IMG/VR virus record: IMGVR_UViG_3300011253_000289
Span: 1-24,290 of that record
DNA length: 24,290 nt
Direction: 5' to 3' (one strand)
Source of the DNA: a virus
Notes under the pieces: model-generated
Databases searched by the model: none
What the model saw: only the letters and a program-made list of their open reading frames with translations
Told to the model about the DNA's origin: nothing
Position numbers and translations under genes: made by a program
Shown here: positions 986 to 21,141 of the stretch, in pieces
Numbering within the stretch: the first letter of the stretch is position 1
Layout of the letters: the number at the start of each line of letters is the position of its first letter

Positions 986-2989
986 TTAGTTGTCTACTTT
1001 TGCACTAGCACGCCATTGGTAACACGACCAATATCCTGGAGTAGTTTTATCTGTTTTGTTTGCGCAATCATGTCTTGCTCTAAATGACTTTCTTCTTGCT
1101 GGATCATCGCGTTTGATTTCCATATTAGGATCACCAAATGTAACCTTTATGATATTTCCTTTAGCATTCTTCACATACACACCAAACTTCTTTTTATTTC
1201 CACTTGGTAATCTGAATGGATCATTTAGTTTTACCGATCTCCCTTGATATTCTGCCTCAGTAATTACAACATCGCTATAATCACAATCGCAGTCTTCAGC
1301 AACTTGGCCAGGTGTATCTTTTTTGTATTTGTTAGCAAGTTCTGTGCTACCAAACTCACCAGCACCTGATTTGTTCATCATTTCCTTAAACTTTTTCTTC
1401 TTAGAAATAGCGATTGCTGCCTGTTGAGCAGGTGATACTGCCTCTTTCACACAATTAGGAACAACTTTATCACCCTTCTTTTTCATACCCTGTTGATGAT
1501 ATCCATCCCAACAATCTTCACTCTTCGATTTCGATCCTCTAACTTTTGCTGCAAGATCAGCATCTGCTTTGCCCCATGTTCCTTTACCTTTAGTGATAAA
1601 AGAATTAACACGAGCAAAACCCCATTGTTGTTGATTAGCACCTGGACGATGCCCTGTACGCCATGCTGCAAGTCCTCTATCATATACCTTCTTTAATATG
1701 CCGTATGATATACCAGACTTGTCTGCTTTTTTCATTAATGCTGCTTTGGCGTTTTCAGTTATGTCTTCTTGTTCAACTTTCTCACCGAACATCTGATGAT
1801 ATTTTTTAGTATGTTTTGACATTTTAGTTTTAGCAGTGCTATCTCCAGGATGTGACTTTGGATATGCTGAAGGATCACTTGGATCTTTATCAGCACCTTT
1901 TTGGAATGCTCTATCACGAGCAACCTTAGTTGACTTTTTTAGACCAGAGTGATACTTAGCAGGTTGAGTTCCCTCTCGATCTTTTATATCTGAGTCTTGT
2001 CTTGCTTCGTCAAGTAATTCAGTCATGAACTCCTCCGCATCGGATTCGTACAACTCAAACACGAGATCTTCGTTTTCCAACCAATCGTATTCCTCGTTCT
2101 TTGGTCCACTTCTTGCTGCTTTAACTCTTGCCATTTCTGCTTTACGAACTTTAGGCAAAAGTCTTTTCGCTAGTTTATCAATTACACCAGAACGTTTATC
2201 AACCAACTTATCTACAGACATCTTGCCTGAGAATGAGAGTTGTTTGTAATTCTCTCCACGCGAACCAGCAAGTTTCTTTCTTAGTATGTTCTTTGCTGCC
2301 TTTCGCGCTCTCTGTAGTAAACGACTCGCATCGGCAAATCGTTTCTTTCTAATCTTTCGTTTCATCGCAAGTTTCTTAGCAATACGTTTCATCGTTCTTG
2401 CTCGTTTCATGCGCTGTTGTAACGTCATTACTGCTTCGTCTAACTCTTCGGTCTCCATTATATCACGGAGCATATCATATATCTTTTGAGCAGAGGACTG
2501 TAGAGGTTTAGGTAGACCAGACTTGAATGCCTTAAGATCGCCTTCCTTTGCTGCAGCACGCATCTTACTGGCACTCATACCTGATACACCTTCAGCGTCA
2601 GGATCTCTTTGACCAGCAGATTGATATTTAATAGATTCGAAGTTATAATCTTTGCCGTTATACTTGTCTAGCAAAGTTTTGAATTCTTTTATACGATCTG
2701 AACCTACAACTAACACCACGTCGGTGTACTTTTGCGCAGTAAGTTCTTTCATAACATCAATGATAGTTCTTGCTCTAGACTTAGTTACGGTTGAACCAAA
2801 TGCCTTCTTAGCAAGATTAATCTTTGTGTCGTAATCTAAGGGATCTTTTTTATTGTTTTGAGAGTGTGACAAATACACTCTAGCGTCTGCCTTTTGTGCT
2901 TTGGCAACGGACTTGACCTTATCAACGAGTTTTTGATGACCCACAGTTGGTGGGTTCATTCTTCCAAATGTAAATACTATTTTTTTCAT
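986..2989 (-). CDS. Modular protein: N-terminal nucleotidyltransferase plus basic and phage-specific modules
   Basis: 667 aa. Residues 1-175 resemble the HxGH cytidylyltransferase/adenylyltransferase fold: FTFGRMNPPTVGHQKL has TVGH at 15-18 in place of HxGH, VVGSDR lies near 95-99, and SGMSASKMR (136-144) matches the ISxTxxR-type C-terminal motif. Residues 190-300 are very Lys/Arg-rich and helical. Residues about 340-400 (KYHSGLKKSTKVARDR onward) and 425-485 (AAWRTGHRPGANQQQW) are modules I recall from many marine phages, the second resembling DUF5824. A CWDGYHQQGMKKKG...VPNCV motif follows at 493-514. The last ~90 residues form another mobile phage domain (FGDPNMEIKRDDPARRKSF). The role is unknown; a late internal or core protein with NTP-binding ability is a guess. 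The start follows a weak ribosome site. A late promoter lies about 90 bp upstream. Confidence 0.85.
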   Translation of the reverse strand: MKKIVFTFGRMNPPTVGHQKLVDKVKSVAKAQKADARVYLSHSQNNKKDPLDYDTKINLAKKAFGSTVTKSRARTIIDVMKELTAQKYTDVVLVVGSDRIKEFKTLLDKYNGKDYNFESIKYQSAGQRDPDAEGVSGMSASKMRAAAKEGDLKAFKSGLPKPLQSSAQKIYDMLRDIMETEELDEAVMTLQQRMKRARTMKRIAKKLAMKRKIRKKRFADASRLLQRARKAAKNILRKKLAGSRGENYKQLSFSGKMSVDKLVDKRSGVIDKLAKRLLPKVRKAEMARVKAARSGPKNEEYDWLENEDLVFELYESDAEEFMTELLDEARQDSDIKDREGTQPAKYHSGLKKSTKVARDRAFQKGADKDPSDPSAYPKSHPGDSTAKTKMSKHTKKYHQMFGEKVEQEDITENAKAALMKKADKSGISYGILKKVYDRGLAAWRTGHRPGANQQQWGFARVNSFITKGKGTWGKADADLAAKVRGSKSKSEDCWDGYHQQGMKKKGDKVVPNCVKEAVSPAQQAAIAISKKKKFKEMMNKSGAGEFGSTELANKYKKDTPGQVAEDCDCDYSDVVITEAEYQGRSVKLNDPFRLPSGNKKKFGVYVKNAKGNIIKVTFGDPNMEIKRDDPARRKSFRARHDCANKTDKTTPGYWSCYQWRASAKVDN

Positions 2990-3017
2990 ACTAGCATGTT
3001 TTCCGTAGACTTAATGC

Positions 3018-3046
3018 TTGACTAAAACCTAATAAAGCGTTATAAT
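3018..3046 (+). promoter_or_regulatory. Sigma70-like promoter on the opposite strand
   Basis: TTGACT at 3018-3023, exactly 17 bp, then TATAAT at 3041-3046, read on the plus strand. It matches the box sequences and spacing of the minus-strand promoters in this window. Nothing on the plus strand downstream looks like a real gene (only a 16-codon ORF starting near 3096), so a transcript would be antisense to the late genes at 3088-5856. Confidence 0.55.
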
Positions 3047-3076
3047 AGAGTGTCGCTTATAAGGACTAATAACAGT

Positions 3077-3084
3077 TATTTATA
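3077..3084 (-). promoter_or_regulatory. T4-type late promoter
   Basis: Reads TATAAATA on the minus strand, identical to the T4 late promoter core recognised by the gp55-type sigma factor with the sliding clamp. It lies in a noncoding gap, directly after the stop of the 37-codon ORF and about 90 bp before the start of the 667-aa gene. Confidence 0.7.
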
Positions 3085-3087
3085 CTT

Positions 3088-3201
3088 TTAGAAAAATGCA
3101 TGTAATACTGAGTGCAGTAAATGCAATGGTATCAAACATAGCATAATACATATCAACCACATAAATCCATATCCCACATATTCCATCATCACTTCTTTCA
3201 T
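3088..3201 (-). CDS. 37-aa hydrophobic peptide, probable single-pass membrane protein
   Basis: ATG at 3199-3201 overlaps the TGA stop of the preceding gene (ATGA). AAAGGATGGG lies about 8 nt upstream. The product starts MKEVMMEYVGYGFMWLICIM and continues with a Leu/Ile/Cys-rich stretch, giving one transmembrane segment at about residues 10-33. It ends with TAA four bases before the late promoter. I recognise no family. Overlap coupling, ribosome site and hydrophobicity support a real gene, but length alone would not. Confidence 0.55.
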   Translation of the reverse strand: MKEVMMEYVGYGFMWLICIMLCLIPLHLLHSVLHAFF

Positions 3202-4427
3202 TTTTCCCATCCTTTAATCACATCACTTGAGAAGTTCGCTCTTGAGAACTCCATACGATTAACCAACTTCAAAGCACTTCCTTTTCGATCAATACCTACA
3301 TATCCTTCAGGAGCAGTTACTTCAAATCCTTTTGCTGTTCGTAGGAATGTACCTATATTACTTGCTTGGTCTAATTTGTCAACAATTATTTCTTTTGCAA
3401 CTATTATATAGTTCATCATCGTGAAGATGGTTTCTAAATTCTTTTTATTTGAATTAGAAAAGAAACTTAGTATCTCATCACGCTTGTCTGTTTGTTTTGC
3501 TTTGCCTTGTGGCGTCTTCCTTTTTTCTGCTTCTTTTCCATAGAATTCAGTAATGTAATTAACGAGATCCCTGACATGAGCAGAAACATTAGTAATTCGT
3601 TCACCTTTACGCACCTTTGTGTTGTAGTGAGTCTTTACTTTCTGAAGCAGTTCGGGATTGTCAGATATTCCATTAAGTGTTTTAGCATCAAGTTTTCTAA
3701 AAATTTTCCCAGCGTCGGAAAGCAACTTGGTGATTCGTGTAGTCTCTTTCTTTGTAAATGTAGCATTGCCTGATACATCTTGGAACATAGCATCTACAGA
3801 CCAAACATTCTTGCTATTTTTAAATTTAGAAGCAATGTTCTTACCAAATGATGCACTCATGTTCTCAAAAGAGTCGCCTGTATAGGTTGTATGCCAAACA
3901 ATACCAATTTGTGATTGGCGTATAGTTCTACCCAACTCTGATGCGAGTGGGACTGCATACATGATAGTGTTAGGATGGAATGTGACCATCTTCTCACCAT
4001 CAACCGTTTGTTTTTTTAAATCAGATCTAGAGTATAGTAGATCTCCTTGATACACACCTTGAGTGATACCAAGTTCTGGCAAATACTTTAATGTCAGTGA
4101 TAGTTTCTTTGCTAGATCGCCAGAGGTATCTGCCTTAACCTCTGCTTCGGTCTTGTATATTTTAGGATTCTTATTGAAGATACCCTTCTTAGCAACAAAG
4201 AACTTTCCATCTGTTGGGTCAATACCTGCAAAAATAGCAGGTGCACCGTCCCACTTTACGGTGACGTCCACAGCAGAATCACTGCTGCCAGCGAGCATAT
4301 CACGTAAATTTCTGAGGAGATTAATTGCATCTCTTGCTCCTTTCACACCTGCGTTGAGAACAGCGTCCTCTAGGTGTTCCATGTGAGTGTTTTTTTCTTC
4401 AGTTATGTATGTCGAAAACTTTTTCAT
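3198..4427 (-). CDS. Putative ligase/nucleotidyltransferase-like phage protein
   Basis: 409 aa, starting one base after the preceding stop. Four short motifs appear in the order expected of covalent nucleotidyltransferases (ATP-dependent DNA/RNA ligases, capping enzymes): VKWDGAPAIFAG with Lys58 and DG at 60-61 (motif I, KxDG); GVYQGDLLY at 124-132 (motif III-like, Asp in place of the usual Glu); EGYVGI at 374-379 (motif IV-like); and KLVNR at 387-391 (motif V-like). The gap between the motif III-like and IV-like segments is long and holds a charged helical insert (about 295-335), so the assignment is tentative. I recall this as a conserved uncharacterised family in marine T4-like phages (possibly DUF6267). 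An alternative start is Met16. It shares a late unit with its neighbours. Confidence 0.85.
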   Translation of the reverse strand: MKKFSTYITEEKNTHMEHLEDAVLNAGVKGARDAINLLRNLRDMLAGSSDSAVDVTVKWDGAPAIFAGIDPTDGKFFVAKKGIFNKNPKIYKTEAEVKADTSGDLAKKLSLTLKYLPELGITQGVYQGDLLYSRSDLKKQTVDGEKMVTFHPNTIMYAVPLASELGRTIRQSQIGIVWHTTYTGDSFENMSASFGKNIASKFKNSKNVWSVDAMFQDVSGNATFTKKETTRITKLLSDAGKIFRKLDAKTLNGISDNPELLQKVKTHYNTKVRKGERITNVSAHVRDLVNYITEFYGKEAEKRKTPQGKAKQTDKRDEILSFFSNSNKKNLETIFTMMNYIIVAKEIIVDKLDQASNIGTFLRTAKGFEVTAPEGYVGIDRKGSALKLVNRMEFSRANFSSDVIKGWEK

Positions 4428-9240: not shown

Positions 9241-9526
9241 CTGTTCCCTTTACATTTTCAAGTTGCTCATCAAGTATATTCACTAGAATAGCACCCATTA
9301 TACTACGATCTTTCTCATTAGTCAAGTTTAGATCATCTGGTTTTGATACAACTGCGGTCTTAAACTTTAGAACTGCACCGTCTTCGTCTTGTTCCTCAGT
9401 AATACTTACAGTTTGATATTGATAGATAAGTCCCTTATACTCGCCATCTTTTATCTTAATACACCAATGGTCATTATCGCCATCTTGATGATCAATCAAT
9501 TCAAACTCAGGTGCTGCCATTTCCAT
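9197..9526 (-). CDS. Acidic phage protein of unknown function
   Basis: About 109 aa. Three nearby ATGs are possible; I chose 9524-9526 because AAGGAG lies 6 nt upstream, while the ATG at 9529 is only 3 nt from it. The product is acidic, with a beta-rich centre (WCIKIKDGEYKGLIYQYQTV) and a Glu/Asn/Thr-rich tail overlapping the helicase start by 44 bp. I recall similar small acidic proteins in marine T4-like phages beside recombination genes, without function. It encloses the helicase promoter. Confidence 0.72.
   Translation of the reverse strand: MEMAAPEFELIDHQDGDNDHWCIKIKDGEYKGLIYQYQTVSITEEQDEDGAVLKFKTAVVSKPDDLNLTNEKDRSIMGAILVNILDEQLENVKGTDENGTSNTEESNNG
9297..9325 (-). promoter_or_regulatory. 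Sigma70-like promoter inside a coding region, upstream of gene 41
   Basis: TTGACT (9320-9325), 17 bp, TATAAT (9297-9302) on the minus strand, within the acidic-protein gene and about 55 bp before the gp41 start. Boxes and spacing are identical to the uvsX promoter. Confidence 0.7.
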
Positions 9527-10098
9527 CATAAACTCCTTTTTTCTAATACCCATCTTGGTGGTATCTTCCATAAGTTACAAACGAATGATCTTCTTACACC
9601 TTTTGTTACACTTGTAACTCTATGTATGCAAGAGGGATCAAAGATAATCAATCTGTTTGGAACAGGTTGTATTCTTTCTATCTCACCATGTTCTCGTTTC
9701 ACTTCTAGATACCCACCTTCAGGTAGTTCTTTGTGTGCGTAGTAAATAAATCCATGCTTTGAGACTTTTGCCTTTCCCTCAGCAATCCACTGTTGTTCAA
9801 TTTCCTCCGACATATCTCGTCCATAATTTATTATGTCAGAATCACTATGGAATCCTAGATCTTTATAATCACCTTCGGCATTCATTGAATGACTCCAGTA
9901 TTCCCAACCAACTATTTCTACTGGTTTGGGTGTGAAGAAATAATTATCCCAAACATGTTTACAAAATTCTTCTTTGTAATCTTGTATTTCTAGTCCACAC
10001 CTGTACCAAGATAGGGGTAAATTTTCTTCCCAAAGTTCTTCACTTTCCATTGAAGTCTTCAGATCACCCTCTGGTAATAAGTTATCGTATATAAACAT
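9526..10098 (-). CDS. 2OG-Fe(II) oxygenase-like protein (copy B)
   Basis: 190 aa. It shows the iron-binding facial triad of 2-oxoglutarate/Fe(II) dioxygenases: GFHSDSD with His84 and Asp86, then IFDPSCIHRVTSVTKGVRRS with His159 and an Arg at 169/170 that would bind 2OG. It is clearly a paralogue of the gene just upstream: both begin with a DNLLPEGD/DDFLPEGD block and share GWEYW, KELP.GGYL and HGEIERIQP/NGEIERIQP segments. The substrate is unknown; prolyl hydroxylase-like enzymes in phages may modify protein or DNA. The start overlaps the preceding stop (TAATG) with little ribosome-site signal, so it is probably coupled. Confidence 0.85.
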   Translation of the reverse strand: MFIYDNLLPEGDLKTSMESEELWEENLPLSWYRCGLEIQDYKEEFCKHVWDNYFFTPKPVEIVGWEYWSHSMNAEGDYKDLGFHSDSDIINYGRDMSEEIEQQWIAEGKAKVSKHGFIYYAHKELPEGGYLEVKREHGEIERIQPVPNRLIIFDPSCIHRVTSVTKGVRRSFVCNLWKIPPRWVLEKRSL

Positions 10099-10652
10099 TA
10101 TAGATATGGAGTGTTTTCAAATAAATTCATACCATCTTCTCCATAGTGCCAAGGTTTTTCATCCCATGCTACAGATATAAGAGAAGATCTAATTCCTTCG
10201 GTTATCAACGAAACAGTATGAAATGTTTCAGAATCAAATATCACCAATCTATTTGGTTTTGGTTGTATTCGTTCTATCTCACCGTTTTGTCTTTGTAACA
10301 ATAAATATCCACCTTTTGGTAATTCTTTTTGCGCTAGATATGAAAAACTAAATTTAGCAAATTTAAGCGGATGACCTTTTAAATCATCTGGATCAATGGT
10401 ATTATTATCTTGATGAAATCCCAACTGAGCACCAGTCTTCAAAGCTTTAGTCCAATATTCCCAACCAGTAATACCATCTATATGCTTTGAATATATTTGT
10501 TTCCAAACTAATGATGAGAACTCTTCAAATACATTTATGGGGTCATCGTCAATGTTTTGCCATCGCCAGTGACTGTTTTTTACCCATAGTGATTCATCCC
10601 AAAGTTTTTCTTTAAAATCACCCTCTGGTAAGAAGTCGTCAATCAGTAACAT
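10098..10652 (-). CDS. 2OG-Fe(II) oxygenase-like protein (copy A)
   Basis: 184 aa from ATG at 10650-10652. The triad is GFHQDN (His80, Asp82) and SETFHTVSLITEGIRSS (His145, with Arg155 for 2OG). Compared with copy B, the stretch between Asp and the distal His is shorter and the C-terminus differs (WHYGEDGMNLFENTPYL), so the two have diverged in what they contact. It overlaps the 3' end of uvsX by 14 bp in another frame. A longer in-frame start inside uvsX exists, but alignment with copy B favours the MLLIDDFLPEGD start. Confidence 0.85.
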   Translation of the reverse strand: MLLIDDFLPEGDFKEKLWDESLWVKNSHWRWQNIDDDPINVFEEFSSLVWKQIYSKHIDGITGWEYWTKALKTGAQLGFHQDNNTIDPDDLKGHPLKFAKFSFSYLAQKELPKGGYLLLQRQNGEIERIQPKPNRLVIFDSETFHTVSLITEGIRSSLISVAWDEKPWHYGEDGMNLFENTPYL

Positions 10653-11685
10653 CTTCTGTTTCGACTTCCTGTTCAACTTCCCGACCATACATAAACTCTT
10701 TTGCTGCACATTCTTCTAGTTGCTCAAGTAGTTCAGGTGTAAAGTATTTTTCAGGATCAGAGTTGATTGCCTTGCCGAATACTTTAGAACCATCAGGCAG
10801 TTCATATCGAGTTGATACTTTTTTGATAACGTTGTACTTTTCGGCAAGATCTAATAAACCATAATACCGATCAAGTCCTTTATCGTAGGAAAGTTTGATT
10901 TCAATCTTTTTGTTTTCTTTAGTGAAGCGAGACTTGTGAGTAGTTGCCTTGATAATATTACCGATCACCTCAGTGCCGTCTTTATCTTTCTTCTTGCCAA
11001 GCATGATAATAGAAGATGCGGCATACTTGAGACCAGATCCACCACTGATTTCTTTGGTGGGAATATAAGCACCAACCACATCATAGACATGATTGGTGAC
11101 GAGCAGCGGAACATTCGCTTTCGCTAACTTGAGCGAGAGAACACGGAACGTGCCACGCAATAACTGTGCTTTCGTCATGTCGCGTTTGTTCGCGCCTGAT
11201 TCAGTATCTTCCAACTCTTTCATGGAGGAAAGCATACCAAGCGAATCAAGAACCATTAGCATAGGTTTCCTAGACTCTTCAGGTGTGTCTATGTAGTTAG
11301 TTAGGATGCGTGTTGCGCTCGTGCGAAACTCTTCAATAGAAGTTGGTTCGGCAATGACGACACGTGTGGTATCAATACCACGATCTGCCATCATTCCCTT
11401 TGTAACTGCTGCTTCGGTATCAAAGTAGATTACACCACCTTCAGGATTCTTATCAAGAAATGTCTTTAGAACACTGAGTACAAAGAATGTTTTACCAGTT
11501 GCCGATTCACCAGCAAACGCAGTAATCTTATTGTTGGGAACACCGCCATAGATGCTACCAGACATAAGAGCATTCAACGCATACGATCCTGTATCAATCG
11601 ATCCACTGTACTCAGAACTATTACCACCTTCACTCAGGAGATTAGTATTGTCAATCCCCTTTACCATATCTTTCAAAAAATCCAT
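10639..11685 (-). CDS. uvsX: UvsX, RecA-like recombinase
   Basis: 348 aa from ATG at 11683-11685, with TGGAG 8 nt upstream. It would form filaments on ssDNA for strand exchange and recombination-dependent replication. The RecA core has Walker A GESATGKT at 59-66, a Walker B strand in PMLMVLDSLGML, and LLVTNHVYDVVGAY then SGGSGLKYAAS, the loop and binding region of UvsX. The C-terminus is acidic (EVEQEVETEDVTD), as in T4 UvsX, where an acidic tail affects partner binding. It has its own promoter at 11713-11741. Confidence 0.95.
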   Translation of the reverse strand: MDFLKDMVKGIDNTNLLSEGGNSSEYSGSIDTGSYALNALMSGSIYGGVPNNKITAFAGESATGKTFFVLSVLKTFLDKNPEGGVIYFDTEAAVTKGMMADRGIDTTRVVIAEPTSIEEFRTSATRILTNYIDTPEESRKPMLMVLDSLGMLSSMKELEDTESGANKRDMTKAQLLRGTFRVLSLKLAKANVPLLVTNHVYDVVGAYIPTKEISGGSGLKYAASSIIMLGKKKDKDGTEVIGNIIKATTHKSRFTKENKKIEIKLSYDKGLDRYYGLLDLAEKYNVIKKVSTRYELPDGSKVFGKAINSDPEKYFTPELLEQLEECAAKEFMYGREVEQEVETEDVTD

Positions 11686-12146: not shown

Positions 12147-13265
12147 TTATCCGAAGAAGTCCTCAAGTGTATTTGCTTTCTCAGGACTCCAACCAACACT
12201 GTTCAGTATGATTTTCAATGGTTCCAAAAACGACTTATCAAACTGCAAGTCATAGTCAATATATTGAGCAATACCAAACTTCTTTGGTAATGTACTCAAC
12301 ACACTAATAACATTTTGACGAGCAGGATTTGGTACTTTCAGATAACAAAATTTGATCTTCTCTCCGTCCTTGATCAATTCATACTGTTTGGTCAGTTTGT
12401 TTATCTTTAGTAAGTGATTGTATACAAGCGCACCTCTCGCGTGTATCGGTGTGCCTTTTGGTATAATCAAGTTCTTGTCTTTGATAGTATATTTATTAAG
12501 ATCAGATATTGATCGTGGGAATGCAACGTCCTCGAACGGCATTGATCTAAACTCTTCACGGAAACTGTTAATGTAATCTTGTGCAGTTTTCTCATCCTCA
12601 TTCATAATAATCGAGATTGCTTTCTTCAGCGCACCTCGACAGACAGCAGGTGTTGAGGACTTAACCGTTTCAATACCCATCATCTTGAGTTTGGGTTCAG
12701 CGTATCGCACACCCTCGTTATCATACACGTTTAGTATGTATCGTTTCTTAGCAGTCCATACACCTTTATCCGCAATTGCTTCTCGCTTCATAAACATCTT
12801 CTGCGAGTATGCATTCATATTCTCAGCAAGTAACTGGTAACATTTGTCAATATATGGTTCAATTTTCTTTTCAGCAACAGTGTCCAAGAAGGCAACGATT
12901 TTATCGACTGATGGTATTTCACGTCTCTCTTTATAGACCTTGCCCACAAGTTTATCAAAAGTAATGTATAGCGAGTCTGTATCCGATGCAATAACATAAT
13001 CTTTTCCCTTCGTGTCAAGTATTTTGTTTAGATATTCGTTCATCATACGTTCAATCCAACGTATAGACAACTGACCGCTCAATGTAATACCCTCTGCCAT
13101 ACGCACGTCAAAGTGTCGGAAGTATTTGTTACCCAACGCACCATAAGCAGAGTTCAACTGAACCTTCTTTGCTAACTGTAGATTCTTAAACTTAGAGATA
13201 TCCTTTTGTAGTTGCACTCGTTCAATAAGCAACTCTTGTTTTGTCATCTCATCAATTGATTTCAT
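12147..13265 (-). CDS. 43B: DNA polymerase gp43, C-terminal part (fingers, palm C, thumb)
   Basis: 372 aa carrying the second half of a family B polymerase. Motif B is LAKKVQLNSAYGALGNKYFR at 31-50; motif C is ASDTDSLY with the catalytic DTDS at 95-98; then WTAKKRYILNVYDNEGVRYAEP, MMGIETVKSSTP and the thumb. It ends TLEDFFG, like the clamp-binding tail of T4 gp43. The ATG overlaps the end of the N-terminal part by 14 bp in the +1 frame, with AGGA 6 nt upstream. It may be a real separate subunit reassembling with 43A, the product of a frameshift, or a sequencing indel. Confidence 0.93.
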   Translation of the reverse strand: MKSIDEMTKQELLIERVQLQKDISKFKNLQLAKKVQLNSAYGALGNKYFRHFDVRMAEGITLSGQLSIRWIERMMNEYLNKILDTKGKDYVIASDTDSLYITFDKLVGKVYKERREIPSVDKIVAFLDTVAEKKIEPYIDKCYQLLAENMNAYSQKMFMKREAIADKGVWTAKKRYILNVYDNEGVRYAEPKLKMMGIETVKSSTPAVCRGALKKAISIIMNEDEKTAQDYINSFREEFRSMPFEDVAFPRSISDLNKYTIKDKNLIIPKGTPIHARGALVYNHLLKINKLTKQYELIKDGEKIKFCYLKVPNPARQNVISVLSTLPKKFGIAQYIDYDLQFDKSFLEPLKIILNSVGWSPEKANTLEDFFG

Positions 13266-14688
13266 TTAGTTTCCTGTTCACTTGTTCAAGTCTATCCTGC
13301 GCTTCAAGCATAGACTTCTTTGCCTTCACTCGATCATTGTACATTCTATTCATCATTTCAGGCAGAAATCCCATCTTATCTTTACGATAACAAGTACCAT
13401 TCGCTGCCACTGAGTTTTCGGTTTTGTTAGTATAAGTCCCATTGATAGCATCTTCAATTGAAAAGGTTTCACGAGTATCCTCTATGAATGTGTCGGGAGA
13501 TATGTTGTATTGCATGATAAGGTGTGGATACAAACTGTTAAGATCAAAACTCACGACCCACTTATGCATACCGACCTTGGGATCCTTCACATAAGCACCA
13601 GCGAACTGAGAAAACTTATCTTTACGTTCTTTCGGTGGTATGGCAATCTTACGATCCGCCAACCAGTTATGTATCAACACGTCCCACATACGCACCTGAG
13701 TAAACACATCGCTGTAGTTTACCTTCGCGTCATACGCAATCGCAAGTGCCATCTCAATCAACTTCATCTTATCTTCGATCTTATCAATAAGTTCGACGTC
13801 TTTAATATTATAGTCGATAAACTTCTCATAGTCAAGTTTATAGAGTTGATGTAGCGTTTCTACTTCGGAGTAGTCAAGTTTCTTCTCACCGAGTTCAACG
13901 TGAGCAATGTGATCAAGTCTGTAACTCTCTTGCTGAGAATAGGTAAACTTTCTGTAAAGATCTAGATAGTCAAGAACTGTAATGCCTACAAACTCAACGT
14001 CGATTTGCTTACGATTGAATTTTTCGTATTCACGTTCGTTAATCAAACCAACAGGTGACAGTTTCTTTGATACTTGATCGCCAAGAAGTTTAGTCATACG
14101 ATTGTACAGATAAGGAACATCAAATCCTTGTACGTTCCAACCAGTAATGATATCCACATCCCACATACGCCAGTGCTTTAGGAAGTTCAGCAATAGTTCT
14201 CGCTCATCCTTACACTGCAGATAAGTTACATTGTCGGACTTTACCGTATAATCCTGACAACCAAACGTATAATACGCACCATCAAGCGATACGGTGATAG
14301 CAGTAACAGGTTGATTAGAAAGTTGAGGATCAGGGAAACCTTCTTCAGAACCCACCTCAATATCAATATTAAGAACTCGAATATAATCTGTGTCATAGTC
14401 TTGTGTGTAGTTTTCGTTTACGCAAACATAGTCGTATAATGTTGATCCATAGATCTTGAAGTTATCTACTTCAGTGTATTTCTTAACGAAATCCCTAGCA
14501 TCTCGAATACCTCCCATTTCAATTGCTTCAAGTGGTTCACCATCAATTGCCTGCCAATTAGAATTATTTCTAGCAGGGACATAGAGTGTAGGATTATATG
14601 GAATACGATCCGTGAATCTTTTGCCGTTATCATAACCACGCACGATAACGTAGTTGCCACGCATAAAAAAGTTTGTGTAAAATTTCAT
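13252..14688 (-). CDS. 43A: DNA polymerase gp43, N-terminal part (exonuclease, palm motif A)
   Basis: 478 aa from ATG at 14686-14688; MKFYTNFFMRGNYVIV matches the start of T4-type gp43, so the longer upstream reading is rejected. Exonuclease motifs: LNIDIEVGSE (Exo I, about 107-112), WNVQGFDVPYL (Exo II, 184-194), YNIKDVELID (Exo III, 293-302). Polymerase motif A is SFDLNSLYPHLIMQYNISPD at 380-399. It stops after a charged helix (KAKKSMLEAQDRLEQVNRKL) that in intact gp43 leads into the fingers. Together with 43B the length is about 850 aa, near the T4 size, so no large piece is lost. Confidence 0.95.
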   Translation of the reverse strand: MKFYTNFFMRGNYVIVRGYDNGKRFTDRIPYNPTLYVPARNNSNWQAIDGEPLEAIEMGGIRDARDFVKKYTEVDNFKIYGSTLYDYVCVNENYTQDYDTDYIRVLNIDIEVGSEEGFPDPQLSNQPVTAITVSLDGAYYTFGCQDYTVKSDNVTYLQCKDERELLLNFLKHWRMWDVDIITGWNVQGFDVPYLYNRMTKLLGDQVSKKLSPVGLINEREYEKFNRKQIDVEFVGITVLDYLDLYRKFTYSQQESYRLDHIAHVELGEKKLDYSEVETLHQLYKLDYEKFIDYNIKDVELIDKIEDKMKLIEMALAIAYDAKVNYSDVFTQVRMWDVLIHNWLADRKIAIPPKERKDKFSQFAGAYVKDPKVGMHKWVVSFDLNSLYPHLIMQYNISPDTFIEDTRETFSIEDAINGTYTNKTENSVAANGTCYRKDKMGFLPEMMNRMYNDRVKAKKSMLEAQDRLEQVNRKLNEIN

Positions 14689-14697
14689 AGTAGATCT

Positions 14698-14726
14698 ATT
14701 ATATAATAATTCACGGTTCAAGTCAA
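14698..14726 (-). promoter_or_regulatory. Sigma70-like promoter for DNA polymerase
   Basis: TTGACT (14721-14726), 17 bp, TATAAT (14698-14703). The T-tract of the hsp20 terminator ends one base before the -35 box. The expected transcription start is within a few bases of the polymerase ATG. Confidence 0.85.
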
Positions 14727-14727
14727 T

Positions 14728-14752
14728 AAAAAAGGGAAGCATTGCGCTTCCC
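14728..14752 (-). terminator. Rho-independent terminator after hsp20
   Basis: GGGAAGC pairs with GCTTCCC (7 bp, 5-nt loop), followed by TTTTTT on the minus strand. It lies 10 bp past the hsp20 stop. Confidence 0.9.
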
Positions 14753-14762
14753 TTCCCTGAGA

Positions 14763-15215
14763 TTACTTCCCAAGTAACATACTCTTATGGAGTTTGTCAA
14801 ACTCACCGAGTTTTATTTTCTTAGGTAGTTCTTCCTCTGGTATCACATTATGTAGTCCAACATATAACATACCATTTACTATATCAGCACCAACCACCTC
14901 TACAGTATCAGCAAGAGTAAACTGCCTGCGGAAACCTTTAGCAGAAATGCCTTTGTGAATATAGTGCGATTCATCTTGTAGTTTATTTCTCTTACCATCA
15001 ATCGTCAATTTGCCATTTTCAAGAGTAACCTCAATATCATCTTTAGTGAACCCAGCAACAGCAATCTCAATGAGATAGTGATGTGTTTCTTTTTGTATGA
15101 TATTGTATGGAGGATAGGATGGTTGTTTCGACTTCACTTCGTCAATACGATTGAGTGTATCAAAAAGTGGATCGAATCCGAGAAAGATATCTCGTGGAAA
15201 GTTTGTAATAGTCAT
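14763..15215 (-). CDS. Small heat-shock protein, Hsp20/alpha-crystallin family
   Basis: 150 aa from ATG at 15213-15215, with AAGGAG 7 nt upstream; a longer reading from a GTG near 15299 lacks such a site and is rejected. The N-terminus (FPRDIFLGFDPLFDTLNRI) is the usual one for phage Hsp20. The alpha-crystallin domain runs from about 40 to 130: HHYLIEIAVAGFTKDDIEVT, GKLTIDGKRN, KGISAKGFRRQFTLADTVEV, ADIVNGMLYVGL, then IPEEELPKKIKL as an IxI-type tail. It would be an ATP-independent holdase keeping proteins soluble during infection. It is co-transcribed behind pqqA and ends at a terminator. Confidence 0.93.
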   Translation of the reverse strand: MTITNFPRDIFLGFDPLFDTLNRIDEVKSKQPSYPPYNIIQKETHHYLIEIAVAGFTKDDIEVTLENGKLTIDGKRNKLQDESHYIHKGISAKGFRRQFTLADTVEVVGADIVNGMLYVGLHNVIPEEELPKKIKLGEFDKLHKSMLLGK

Positions 15216-15282
15216 ATAGTTCTCCTTTTTATAAAGCAAGATAAATGAGTCCCTTTCGGCAACTCGGATAATGTAAGACTTA

Positions 15283-15300
15283 GGTGGGAGTGCACCCACC
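15283..15300. other. Stem-loop between pqqA and hsp20
   Basis: GGTGGG and CCCACC form a 6-bp stem with a 6-nt loop, 29 bp after the pqqA stop and 67 bp before the hsp20 start. No T-tract follows. It could protect the 3' end of a short pqqA message or adjust the pqqA:hsp20 ratio. Confidence 0.5.
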
Positions 15301-15329
15301 GATGTAACTACACCCCCAATGAAACGTGA

Positions 15330-15401
15330 TTATCTGTTAGCGATATACATCGTAACTTCAAAACCAAATCTCATTTCGGTGTATGTAGGTTTAGTCCACA
15401 T
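15330..15401 (-). CDS. pqqA: PqqA, pyrroloquinoline quinone precursor peptide
   Basis: 23 codons, ATG at 15399-15401, TAA at 15330-15332. AAAGGAAG lies 5 nt before the start. The product begins MWTKPTYTEMRFGF and contains EVTMY at 15-19, ending IANR. Cellular PqqA peptides are 22-29 aa with the same W-x-K-P...R.G.EVT.Y layout; the radical SAM enzyme PqqE, helped by the chaperone PqqD, joins the Glu and Tyr of ExxxY side chains, and PqqB/F/G and PqqC finish PQQ. Glu15 and Tyr19 are both present. No other pqq gene is visible here, so host enzymes would be needed. It has a dedicated promoter region and shares a transcript with hsp20. A decoy or inhibitor role is an alternative to precursor. Confidence 0.92.
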   Translation of the reverse strand: MWTKPTYTEMRFGFEVTMYIANR

Positions 15402-15487
15402 AGTTCTTCCTTTCAATGTTTATTAAGTTAGAAAAATGCAAGACAAATCATCGGAGAGCAATAGCAAAGTCCAACTTGAGTCCTACG

Positions 15488-15505
15488 AGCGTTATTTATA
15501 ACGCT
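15488..15505. repeat. 18-bp palindrome upstream of pqqA
   Basis: Perfect 7-bp arms AGCGTTA (15488-15494) and TAACGCT (15499-15505) around 4 bp. As RNA from the promoter at 15512-15540 it would form a hairpin almost at the very 5' end. The remaining leader 15402-15487 shows no gene and no clear known riboswitch. Confidence 0.75.
15493..15500 (-). promoter_or_regulatory. T4-type late promoter upstream of pqqA
   Basis: TATAAATA on the minus strand, centred in the 18-bp palindrome, about 92 bp before the pqqA start. It is an exact match to the late core seen at 3077-3084 and 5888-5895. Confidence 0.6.
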
Positions 15506-15511
15506 ACAACC

Positions 15512-15540
15512 ATTGTACTACTAATCCCAAAATAAGTCAA
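15512..15540 (-). promoter_or_regulatory. Sigma70-like promoter for pqqA-hsp20
   Basis: TTGACT (15535-15540), 17 bp, TACAAT (15512-15517). The -35 box is read from the last codons of the methyltransferase gene (Leu-Asp-Leu). The predicted leader is about 100 nt. Confidence 0.82.
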
Positions 15541-16402
15541 GGTTTTTCTGTAAATTTCTTTGGTAATTAAGCAGGAGCAACTCTTTTCGGTTCTTTTCGT
15601 CGTCTCGATAGACTTTACTAGAATGCATGGTATAGGTTAAATCCCACTCTATTTGTTCCCAGTCAGAGTATGCTTCCTGTATAGTCTCATTAGAATTGTA
15701 TGTAATCATAACCATATTATCATCAGTGTCTACGCAATCATGAAACTCTTTATGATCGAACCCACTATGCATGTTCCCACTGGACCCATATATAAATGAC
15801 TTGATATCATAAGGTGGGTCACAAAATACAAAGGCATCCTTATCTCCGTCTAATAGATGTTTGTAATCATAGTTTGTAATTTGCCACTTTTGTATTAGTT
15901 TTTGAAAACGTGGAAGACGTGCTATGATATTATGATTGAAATTGCTGTTAATTGCGTCTTTACTGAACGACCCAGCAGTTTCTCCGAGTCCTGAAAATGA
16001 GCATCGATTCAGCATATAGAAACGCCATGCTCGTTCGAACTCATTAGTTTGATTGTTGATTTCTTCTCTCAGTATAGGAAACTGATCAAGATGTGCTTGT
16101 TGGACGTCAGACTGTTTAAGCAACCAGTCTTTCTTTTTGTGTAGAAAGTCTGCAAGCTTGTCGCCTTCTTTCTTTAGCGTAATCCAAAAGCAATATAGAT
16201 TGTAGTATTTGTCGTTGACCCAAACAGGGATGTTGGGATATCGTTTAGTAAACTCGATTGCGCAACTACCGCCACCAACGAATGGGTCGCGATATTCTCC
16301 GATGTTTTCCATCGGTGGTAGGTGATGTTCTTGAAACAAAAACTTTACTGCTCTTGTTTTTCCTCCAGGATATCTTAGAGGCGATTTCAAATCTTTATTC
16401 AT
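15521..16402 (-). CDS. dam: Dam-type adenine-N6 DNA methyltransferase
   Basis: About 293 aa; two adjacent ATGs (16405, 16402) are equally possible. This is a D12-class (alpha) N6-adenine methyltransferase: LRYPGGKTRAVKFL (SAM-binding motif X, near residue 10), YRDPFVGGGSCAIEF (motif I), and FCDPPYD (catalytic DPPY, 196-199 counted from the first ATG). NRCSFSGLGETAGSF matches the Dam family stretch before the DPPY. It would methylate adenine, probably in GATC-like sites, protecting phage DNA from restriction or marking it. No good ribosome site is seen; a GC-rich hairpin (16414-16432) sits just before the start. Confidence 0.92.
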   Translation of the reverse strand: MNKDLKSPLRYPGGKTRAVKFLFQEHHLPPMENIGEYRDPFVGGGSCAIEFTKRYPNIPVWVNDKYYNLYCFWITLKKEGDKLADFLHKKKDWLLKQSDVQQAHLDQFPILREEINNQTNEFERAWRFYMLNRCSFSGLGETAGSFSKDAINSNFNHNIIARLPRFQKLIQKWQITNYDYKHLLDGDKDAFVFCDPPYDIKSFIYGSSGNMHSGFDHKEFHDCVDTDDNMVMITYNSNETIQEAYSDWEQIEWDLTYTMHSSKVYRDDEKNRKELLLLNYQRNLQKNLDLFWD

Positions 16403-16413
16403 CATATATTGTT

Positions 16414-20329: not shown

Positions 20330-20549
20330 TATCTTTTACTCCAAATTTGACATGATTGTACCATACTCGTTCGTGAGCATAGTATAGAATCATTTTAGTT
20401 ACGACTTCAATACCGCCAATCATTGCTCCGACTTCCAGACTACCAGTTACAAACCAACCGATAAGCATCGTGTCGATTGTACCAGTTATACGCCAAGTGA
20501 TAGTCTTAGCAATGTGGCGTTTTCTTGTTACAGTTTTATTCGTATTCAT
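20322..20549 (-). CDS. DUF2061 membrane protein
   Basis: 75 aa. The pattern KRHIAKTITWRITGTIDTML, WFVTGSLEVGAMIGGIE and KMILYYAHERVWYNH is the DUF2061 signature, with two likely transmembrane helices. Such proteins also occur in bacteria, often beside sulfate-assimilation genes, and in marine phages. The function is unknown. It overlaps the oxygenase-like gene by 14 bp and the nucleotidyltransferase gene by 8 bp, so the three are translationally linked. Confidence 0.9.
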   Translation of the reverse strand: MNTNKTVTRKRHIAKTITWRITGTIDTMLIGWFVTGSLEVGAMIGGIEVVTKMILYYAHERVWYNHVKFGVKDNV

Positions 20550-21141
20550 ATTTAGAATTCACACTAATGACCATTCTATTAGAAGAATCATTTTTATGAT
20601 ATCCACTACCATGCTTCAACCAACTTGGAAATATGATTAGATCCCCAGCATTAACATTAAATTCATATCTAGTCCAGTTATATTCATTGTATTGTTCAAC
20701 TGTATTGTTAAACTCTGATGTAAGATTAGGGTTTTGAAAAACTATTGGACTGCTACCACTAGGTGTATTAACATACAATGCCATACTGGCAACAGATCCA
20801 TCGTGATTATGGTCGCGTAACAAACTACCCTCATTTTGAATATTAAACCAACTATTGCCTAGCTTTAGTTTTATTATTCCCATTGTTTTTGCATAATAAT
20901 CGAAGTAATAACTTATTACTTTTTTTATGTTAGGAACTACATTCGATTGCAACTCAGTTAGACAATCAAGGGTAGGATAATTCTCAAGAAAATGACTGCT
21001 GCTAGAATCACCATCTAAAGCTTTATGACGATCAGTATTCAAATTAATTAAATATTCATACATCAATTTTAGTTCTTCTTTAGAAAATACATTTTGTTTT
21101 CTAAAAACTGATGTTGGAAATAATTTATATACTTCTAACAT
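20536..21141 (-). CDS. Putative 2OG-Fe(II) oxygenase
   Basis: 201 aa, TAATG overlap with the dsbA stop. GSLLRDHNHDGSVASMALYV (His111/His113, Asp114), AGDLIIFPSWLKHGSGYH (His177) and SNRMVISVN (Arg189) fit the double-stranded beta-helix iron and 2OG site of the TIGR02466-type phage oxygenases. It is not closely similar to the tandem pair at 9526-10652. The coding region is notably AT-rich compared with gp45 and gp44, possibly a later acquisition. The substrate is unknown. Confidence 0.8.
   Translation of the reverse strand: MLEVYKLFPTSVFRKQNVFSKEELKLMYEYLINLNTDRHKALDGDSSSSHFLENYPTLDCLTELQSNVVPNIKKVISYYFDYYAKTMGIIKLKLGNSWFNIQNEGSLLRDHNHDGSVASMALYVNTPSGSSPIVFQNPNLTSEFNNTVEQYNEYNWTRYEFNVNAGDLIIFPSWLKHGSGYHKNDSSNRMVISVNSKYEYE

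Follow-up and report, generated by a model that had tools for sequence, protein, structure and literature searches.

The window, a stretch of 24,290 nt that makes up IMG/VR virus record IMGVR_UViG_3300011253_000289 from position 1, carries on its minus strand a 23-codon pqqA, the gene for the PQQ precursor peptide, at 15330–15401 with the stop codon included (product MWTKPTYTEMRFGFEVTMYIANR). The original prediction had placed a phage-borne pqqA at exactly these coordinates; the strand, which it left unstated, is minus, with the ATG at 15401–15399 and the stop at 15330–15332, and the plus strand of the same interval is not the pqqA frame. The prediction had proposed a comparison with the PqqA profiles, and both match above their cut-offs over their full length: TIGR02107, the NCBI equivalog model for PqqA, gives 49 bits (E = 3.7e-13, curated cut-off 20, profile positions 1–21 of 21), and PF08042 gives 43.2 bits (E = 3.6e-11, cut-off 21.1, positions 1–19 of 19). 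The high profile score, set against the 188 ATG frames of 20–40 codons in the window, excludes a chance match, and when all 24 kb were searched in six frames this interval was the sole PqqA match in the record (E = 1.4e-13). Glu15 and Tyr19, the residues converted to PQQ in known PqqA, are both present at the spacing of the PQQ cross-link. By these profile matches and by its conservation in syntenic relatives, we identify the frame as a real pqqA. PHROGs holds no family for the peptide, so PHROGs-based annotation will miss the gene.

Along the minus strand the order of elements is TATAAATA, a leader of ~85 nt, AAAGGAAG, pqqA, intergenic hairpins and hsp20. The ribosome-binding site AAAGGAAG (15406–15413) lies 4 nt before the ATG, as had been described, and a Shine-Dalgarno-like motif precedes 114 of the 120 copies listed from a second viral set and nearly all of those from the first. 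The octamer TATAAATA at 15493–15500, the late promoter consensus known from T4 biology, is found three times in the window against about two expected, and it is retained with the leader at the same place in the relatives described below, in line with the suggestion that pqqA has a promoter region of its own. Among the viral copies listed more widely, it falls within 200 nt upstream in only about a sixth (20 of 124), compared with 1.4% of random stretches from the same loci.

The leader itself contains a plausible hairpin (15438–15486; GUAGGAC ... GUCUUGC with an inner stem UUGGA ... UCCGA), the pairing of which is maintained in all eight distinct leaders. The changes are one-sided only, with no compensatory two-sided changes among these eight sequences, so that covariation support is weak and the hairpin unproven. 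A riboswitch was considered but set aside, the leader motif being restricted to this phage group among the loci compared, and Rfam has no match in the window, the leader included; nor was a tRNA found there. As a fixed sequence directly after the late promoter consensus, the leader hairpin could have a role in stabilising the pqqA message or in its regulation. Downstream, the conserved stretch between pqqA and hsp20 (15216–15329, including the hsp20 ribosome-binding site) has hairpins at about 15283–15300 and 15247–15265, and the region 15216–15420 folds better than its shuffles (z = −2.85). The hairpins between the two genes, GGTGGG...CCCACC and GAGTTGCC-GAAA-GGGACTC, are conserved.

The T4-type gene block that had been noted around pqqA is recovered with PHROGs, all of the genes located here being on the minus strand. 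A DNA methyltransferase gene (phrog_56, 15521–16405) lies upstream and hsp20 (phrog_432, 14763–15215), a T4-like core neighbour, downstream, followed by gp43, UvsX, a DnaB-like helicase and the clamp loader. The gp43 DNA polymerase is split into two overlapping genes (12147–13265 and 13252–14742), an arrangement conserved in the close relatives L004, L129–L133 and L138, while Melnitz has one gene. Three genes for 2OG-Fe(II) oxygenases are also present in the window (9526–10098, 10098–10658 and 20536–21141). The window copy thus resembles host pqqA of the TIGR02107/PF08042 type in its full-length sequence, its Glu15 and Tyr19 and its ribosome-binding site, and it resembles the orphan, scattered copies of methylotroph hosts, but it differs in sitting within a T4-like replication block, behind a late promoter consensus and with no pqq operon. 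As with other phage auxiliary metabolic genes, a host-type metabolic gene is flanked here by phage genes, and it is also found in complete genomes of isolated phages.

Relatives of the window were sought with Hsp20 rather than with PqqA, which avoids ascertainment bias, and this yielded 25 loci. The region upstream of hsp20 was then aligned for the window and its ten closest usable loci (L076, L129 and L131–L138). All ten have pqqA in place, the L131 sequence covering only from just before the start codon, and the changes are nearly all silent, so that the conservation proposed as a check on the prediction is seen in related phages. The peptide varies among the aligned relatives at residues 6 (T/E) and 23 (R/K) only, and several of them have the identical peptide although about 11 of 66 nucleotides differ. 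The five distinct sequences, pooled, give pS 0.55 and pN 0.05, part of the latter coming from two-step arginine codon changes that leave the residue unchanged. The same pattern is seen among the matches listed from the second IMG/VR set, in which 108 distinct coding sequences encode 27 peptides and codons 20, 22 and 23, left free by the search pattern, vary mostly at the third position. The overall selection count leaves out L028, L040, L086, L098, L100 and L114, IMG/VR loci of the type WKKP..LGLEVTLYISNR, which were excluded as enterobacterial-looking. From these substitution patterns we conclude that the window peptide is under selection.

To establish how widely the gene is distributed among phages, the peptide was searched with tblastn against 50,697 phage records, which gave 12 matches. 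Nine are methylophages (Venkman, MEP301, MEP401, MEP402, P19250A and four Melnitz isolates), and the other three are a metagenomic Manatee Spring phage and two contigs filed as Acinetobacter phage; an enterobacterial-type query returned the same 12 records. The contigs named Acinetobacter phage MD-2021a were rejected as instances of phage pqqA, as they look like bacterial DNA: in one of them (CAKLQF020000010.1) pqqA heads a bacterial-type operon with pqqB, C, D and a radical SAM gene, and with a polyphosphate kinase and other host-like genes also present it is likely not phage DNA. Apart from this mislabelled entry, pqqA in the collection is confined to methylophages and one spring phage. The methylophages concerned belong to unrelated lineages, namely a T4-like myovirus, small podo- or siphovirus-like genomes and a member of the Zobellviridae, and no pqqA match came from the phages of Vibrio, Lentibacter, Roseobacter or Pelagibacter that are structurally related to MEP402 and MEP301. 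Two sequence patterns run against IMG/VR gave at least 119 and at least 120 loci, hence at least 239 more viral contigs, and among the matches listed the proteins neighbouring pqqA resemble many different references.

The expectation that such a gene would escape gene callers also agrees with the records, since none of the methylophage entries has pqqA annotated and the papers on Melnitz, Venkman, MEP301 and MEP401 are silent on pqq genes. Hypothetical ORFs are called on the opposite strand in Melnitz (gp152, at 3961–4056 of the locus) and in the Manatee Spring phage (UOF77531, at 2067–2195), both probably spurious. Nine isolated methylophages of unrelated kinds and hundreds of environmental phage contigs have in common a gene that, at 23 codons, is too short for ordinary gene callers.

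Each of six complete phage genomes holds exactly one pqqA above the cut-off. PqqE above its cut-off was found in none of these six genomes, in none of 50 viral contigs and not in the window, and PQQ alcohol dehydrogenases were likewise absent from all three sets, whereas the same searches recovered one PqqE in each of three candidate hosts, which served as positive controls, and one or more PQQ alcohol dehydrogenases in each of the four hosts tested. The phages thus bring the substrate and not the enzymes. PqqC was not found in the phages either, but that search lacked a positive control and carries no weight here. One 102 kb viral contig with pqqA (L022, G023:C1:10281-11770) has two weak radical SAM matches to PqqE below the cut-off, which are probably other radical SAM proteins. 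The methylophages Melnitz, Venkman, P19250A, MEP301 and MEP401/402 share with the window a single orphan pqqA and no PqqE, although the gene occupies other genomic places in them and their peptides end in VMNK, VLNK or IMTR rather than in the IANR type.

Glu15 and Tyr19 are invariant in all viral copies listed. Scans covering most other codons at these two positions found no copy in which either residue is replaced, against at least 119 intact, but a control scan for Thr17 variants was equally empty, which indicates that the whole core is constrained and that the result is not specific to Glu15 and Tyr19. These data bear on the two functions that the original prediction had offered, a supply of extra precursor to the host enzymes or a decoy. 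Phages do encode decoys, and a short peptide in excess could saturate PqqD or PqqE, tie them up, lower host PQQ synthesis and so redirect metabolism. The intact Glu15 and Tyr19, read with the caveat of the core-wide constraint, speak against this, as does the methylophage P19250A, whose peptide (MWTTPAATEMRFGFEVTMYVMNK) matches a host-type peptide of a 1.3 Mb genome at every residue and should be a normal substrate. We regard the decoy as very unlikely and favour precursor supply. The P19250A gene is only 3 nt apart in sequence from its host-type counterpart, so capture from hosts does happen, and pqqA could be a non-functional, neutral passenger acquired in this way; with a bias to silent change maintained over deep divergence, a ribosome-binding site and promoter that are kept, and carriage by many unrelated lineages, this is scarcely credible. 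We instead consider it quite probable, from the evidence within the sequences themselves, that the window pqqA is a functional phage-borne gene supplying PqqA to a PQQ-making host.

A PQQ-making host, perhaps a marine methylotroph or other proteobacterium, had been predicted, and the confinement of the matches to methylophages and the pqqA genes of candidate hosts point the same way, to a host that is probably methylotroph-like. Nine pqqA copies each were found in Methylophaga muralis and in MAG-71, seven each in G378 and G406, larger genomes of the order that holds TMED22, and one to three in six genomes of 1.3–1.4 Mb that are, by size and peptide, putatively Methylophilaceae. Candidate hosts thus have up to nine scattered pqqA copies to one PqqE. 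In Methylophilaceae, 3–12 pqqA copies have been described, with pqqB–G single but for one exception (PMC4109929). For Methylovorus, PMC11317620, citing Ge 2015, reports that the rate is set by how much PqqA is available. As a point against the supply reading, one pqqA of M. extorquens AM1 is reported as dispensable, the other copies being untested there (PMC11317620).

One orphan host copy has neighbours of a different kind. In the marine betaproteobacterium TMED22, a candidate host (L167), the gene, at 1693–1749 on the minus strand, adjoins a response regulator, a histidine kinase and cytochrome b561, with neighbouring sequence at 1909–4314, also minus. This setting would suit a reading of PqqA as a transcriptional signal to the host and not as a precursor. 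The constraint on the phage peptides, however, spans the residues needed by the PqqA profile and by the chemistry, and the literature searched holds no such case, so that a regulatory peptide appears extremely unlikely.

Under the precursor reading, late phage transcription would make fresh PqqA, translated during infection of a PQQ-making host, which would be a methylotroph or a similar user of PQQ alcohol dehydrogenases. Host PqqD would present the phage peptide, host PqqE would cross-link Glu15 and Tyr19, and a host protease, PqqB and PqqC would complete PQQ. Each PQQ uses up one PqqA, while PqqB–E are catalysts that persist; with the peptide consumed mole for mole, PqqA would become limiting after host gene shut-off, the precursor running out first, and the phage would renew that part only. 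This resupply would keep PQQ dehydrogenases charged and may benefit the phage through PQQ-dependent oxidation. Cyanophages carry psbA for the fast-turning D1 protein, and the functional analogy, which goes no further, is that a phage supplies just that component of a host energy system which is consumed fast; PqqA differs in being a substrate, a peptide from which a cofactor is made, and not an enzyme subunit. Resupply of consumable PqqA is probably a common strategy of phages of methanol-oxidising bacteria. PQQ, or another product derived from PqqA, might instead serve a different role, for example in lanthanide handling or antioxidant protection, given that PQQ binds lanthanides and that orphan pqqA copies of M. 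extorquens respond to lanthanide supply (PMC11317620). This seems unlikely, as none of the identified window genes suggests a link to metals and the PQQ alcohol dehydrogenases of the candidate hosts are the obvious users.

Phage pqqA as such is already known. For population VP_266, a T4-like phage of Methylophilaceae in Lake Baikal, pqqA is reported alongside methanol dehydrogenase (PMC7678222), and the viral genes recorded from reservoir sediments include pqqA (PMC13188868). The Baikal phage is alike in its PqqA, in its T4-like character, in its presumed methylotroph host and in the auxiliary-gene interpretation given to it, and differs in its methanol dehydrogenase, as the window, the 50 contigs and the six complete genomes are all without a PQQ dehydrogenase; no description of a spread over cultured methylophages was found in the account of it. 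The breadth across methylophages appears to be unreported, and in the open-access literature we found no report of pqqA in isolated methylophages, of the precursor-only rule or of host-matched peptide types. On balance we favour the view that unrelated lineages of phages on PQQ-dependent methylotrophs have an orphan pqqA as a hallmark gene, by which a consumable peptide is supplied alone and matched to the host, with a late promoter and a structured leader in the T4-like group of the window. The prediction that follows is that after host shut-off PqqA becomes the limiting factor for PQQ-dependent oxidation in infected cells, and it is directly testable with the isolated phage–host pairs that exist (Melnitz, Venkman, P19250A and MEP).

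The peptides fall into types by host group. ICNR termini are mostly from Methylophaga and IYNR from Methylococcales, while IANR occurs in TMED22-type and other betaproteobacteria and VMNK in the small-genome group. The gene can serve as a sequence tag for phages of PQQ-dependent bacteria, with the C-terminus of the peptide as a hint at the host group. A single residue separates the window peptide from the IANR type, a type found for example in marine TMED22, the genome of which has two pqqA copies, one PqqE, a pqqB adjoining a pqqA, and PQQ dehydrogenases. In the UvsX comparison Melnitz ranks first (421 bits) and cyanophages follow closely (415), both at about 60% identity, so the host is not settled by UvsX. 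Judging from the peptide type, a PQQ-producing marine betaproteobacterium with the IANR peptide is a more likely host than OM43 itself. A similar correspondence is seen on the viral contig L078, whose core peptide equals that of Methylophaga muralis (L218) and of L262.
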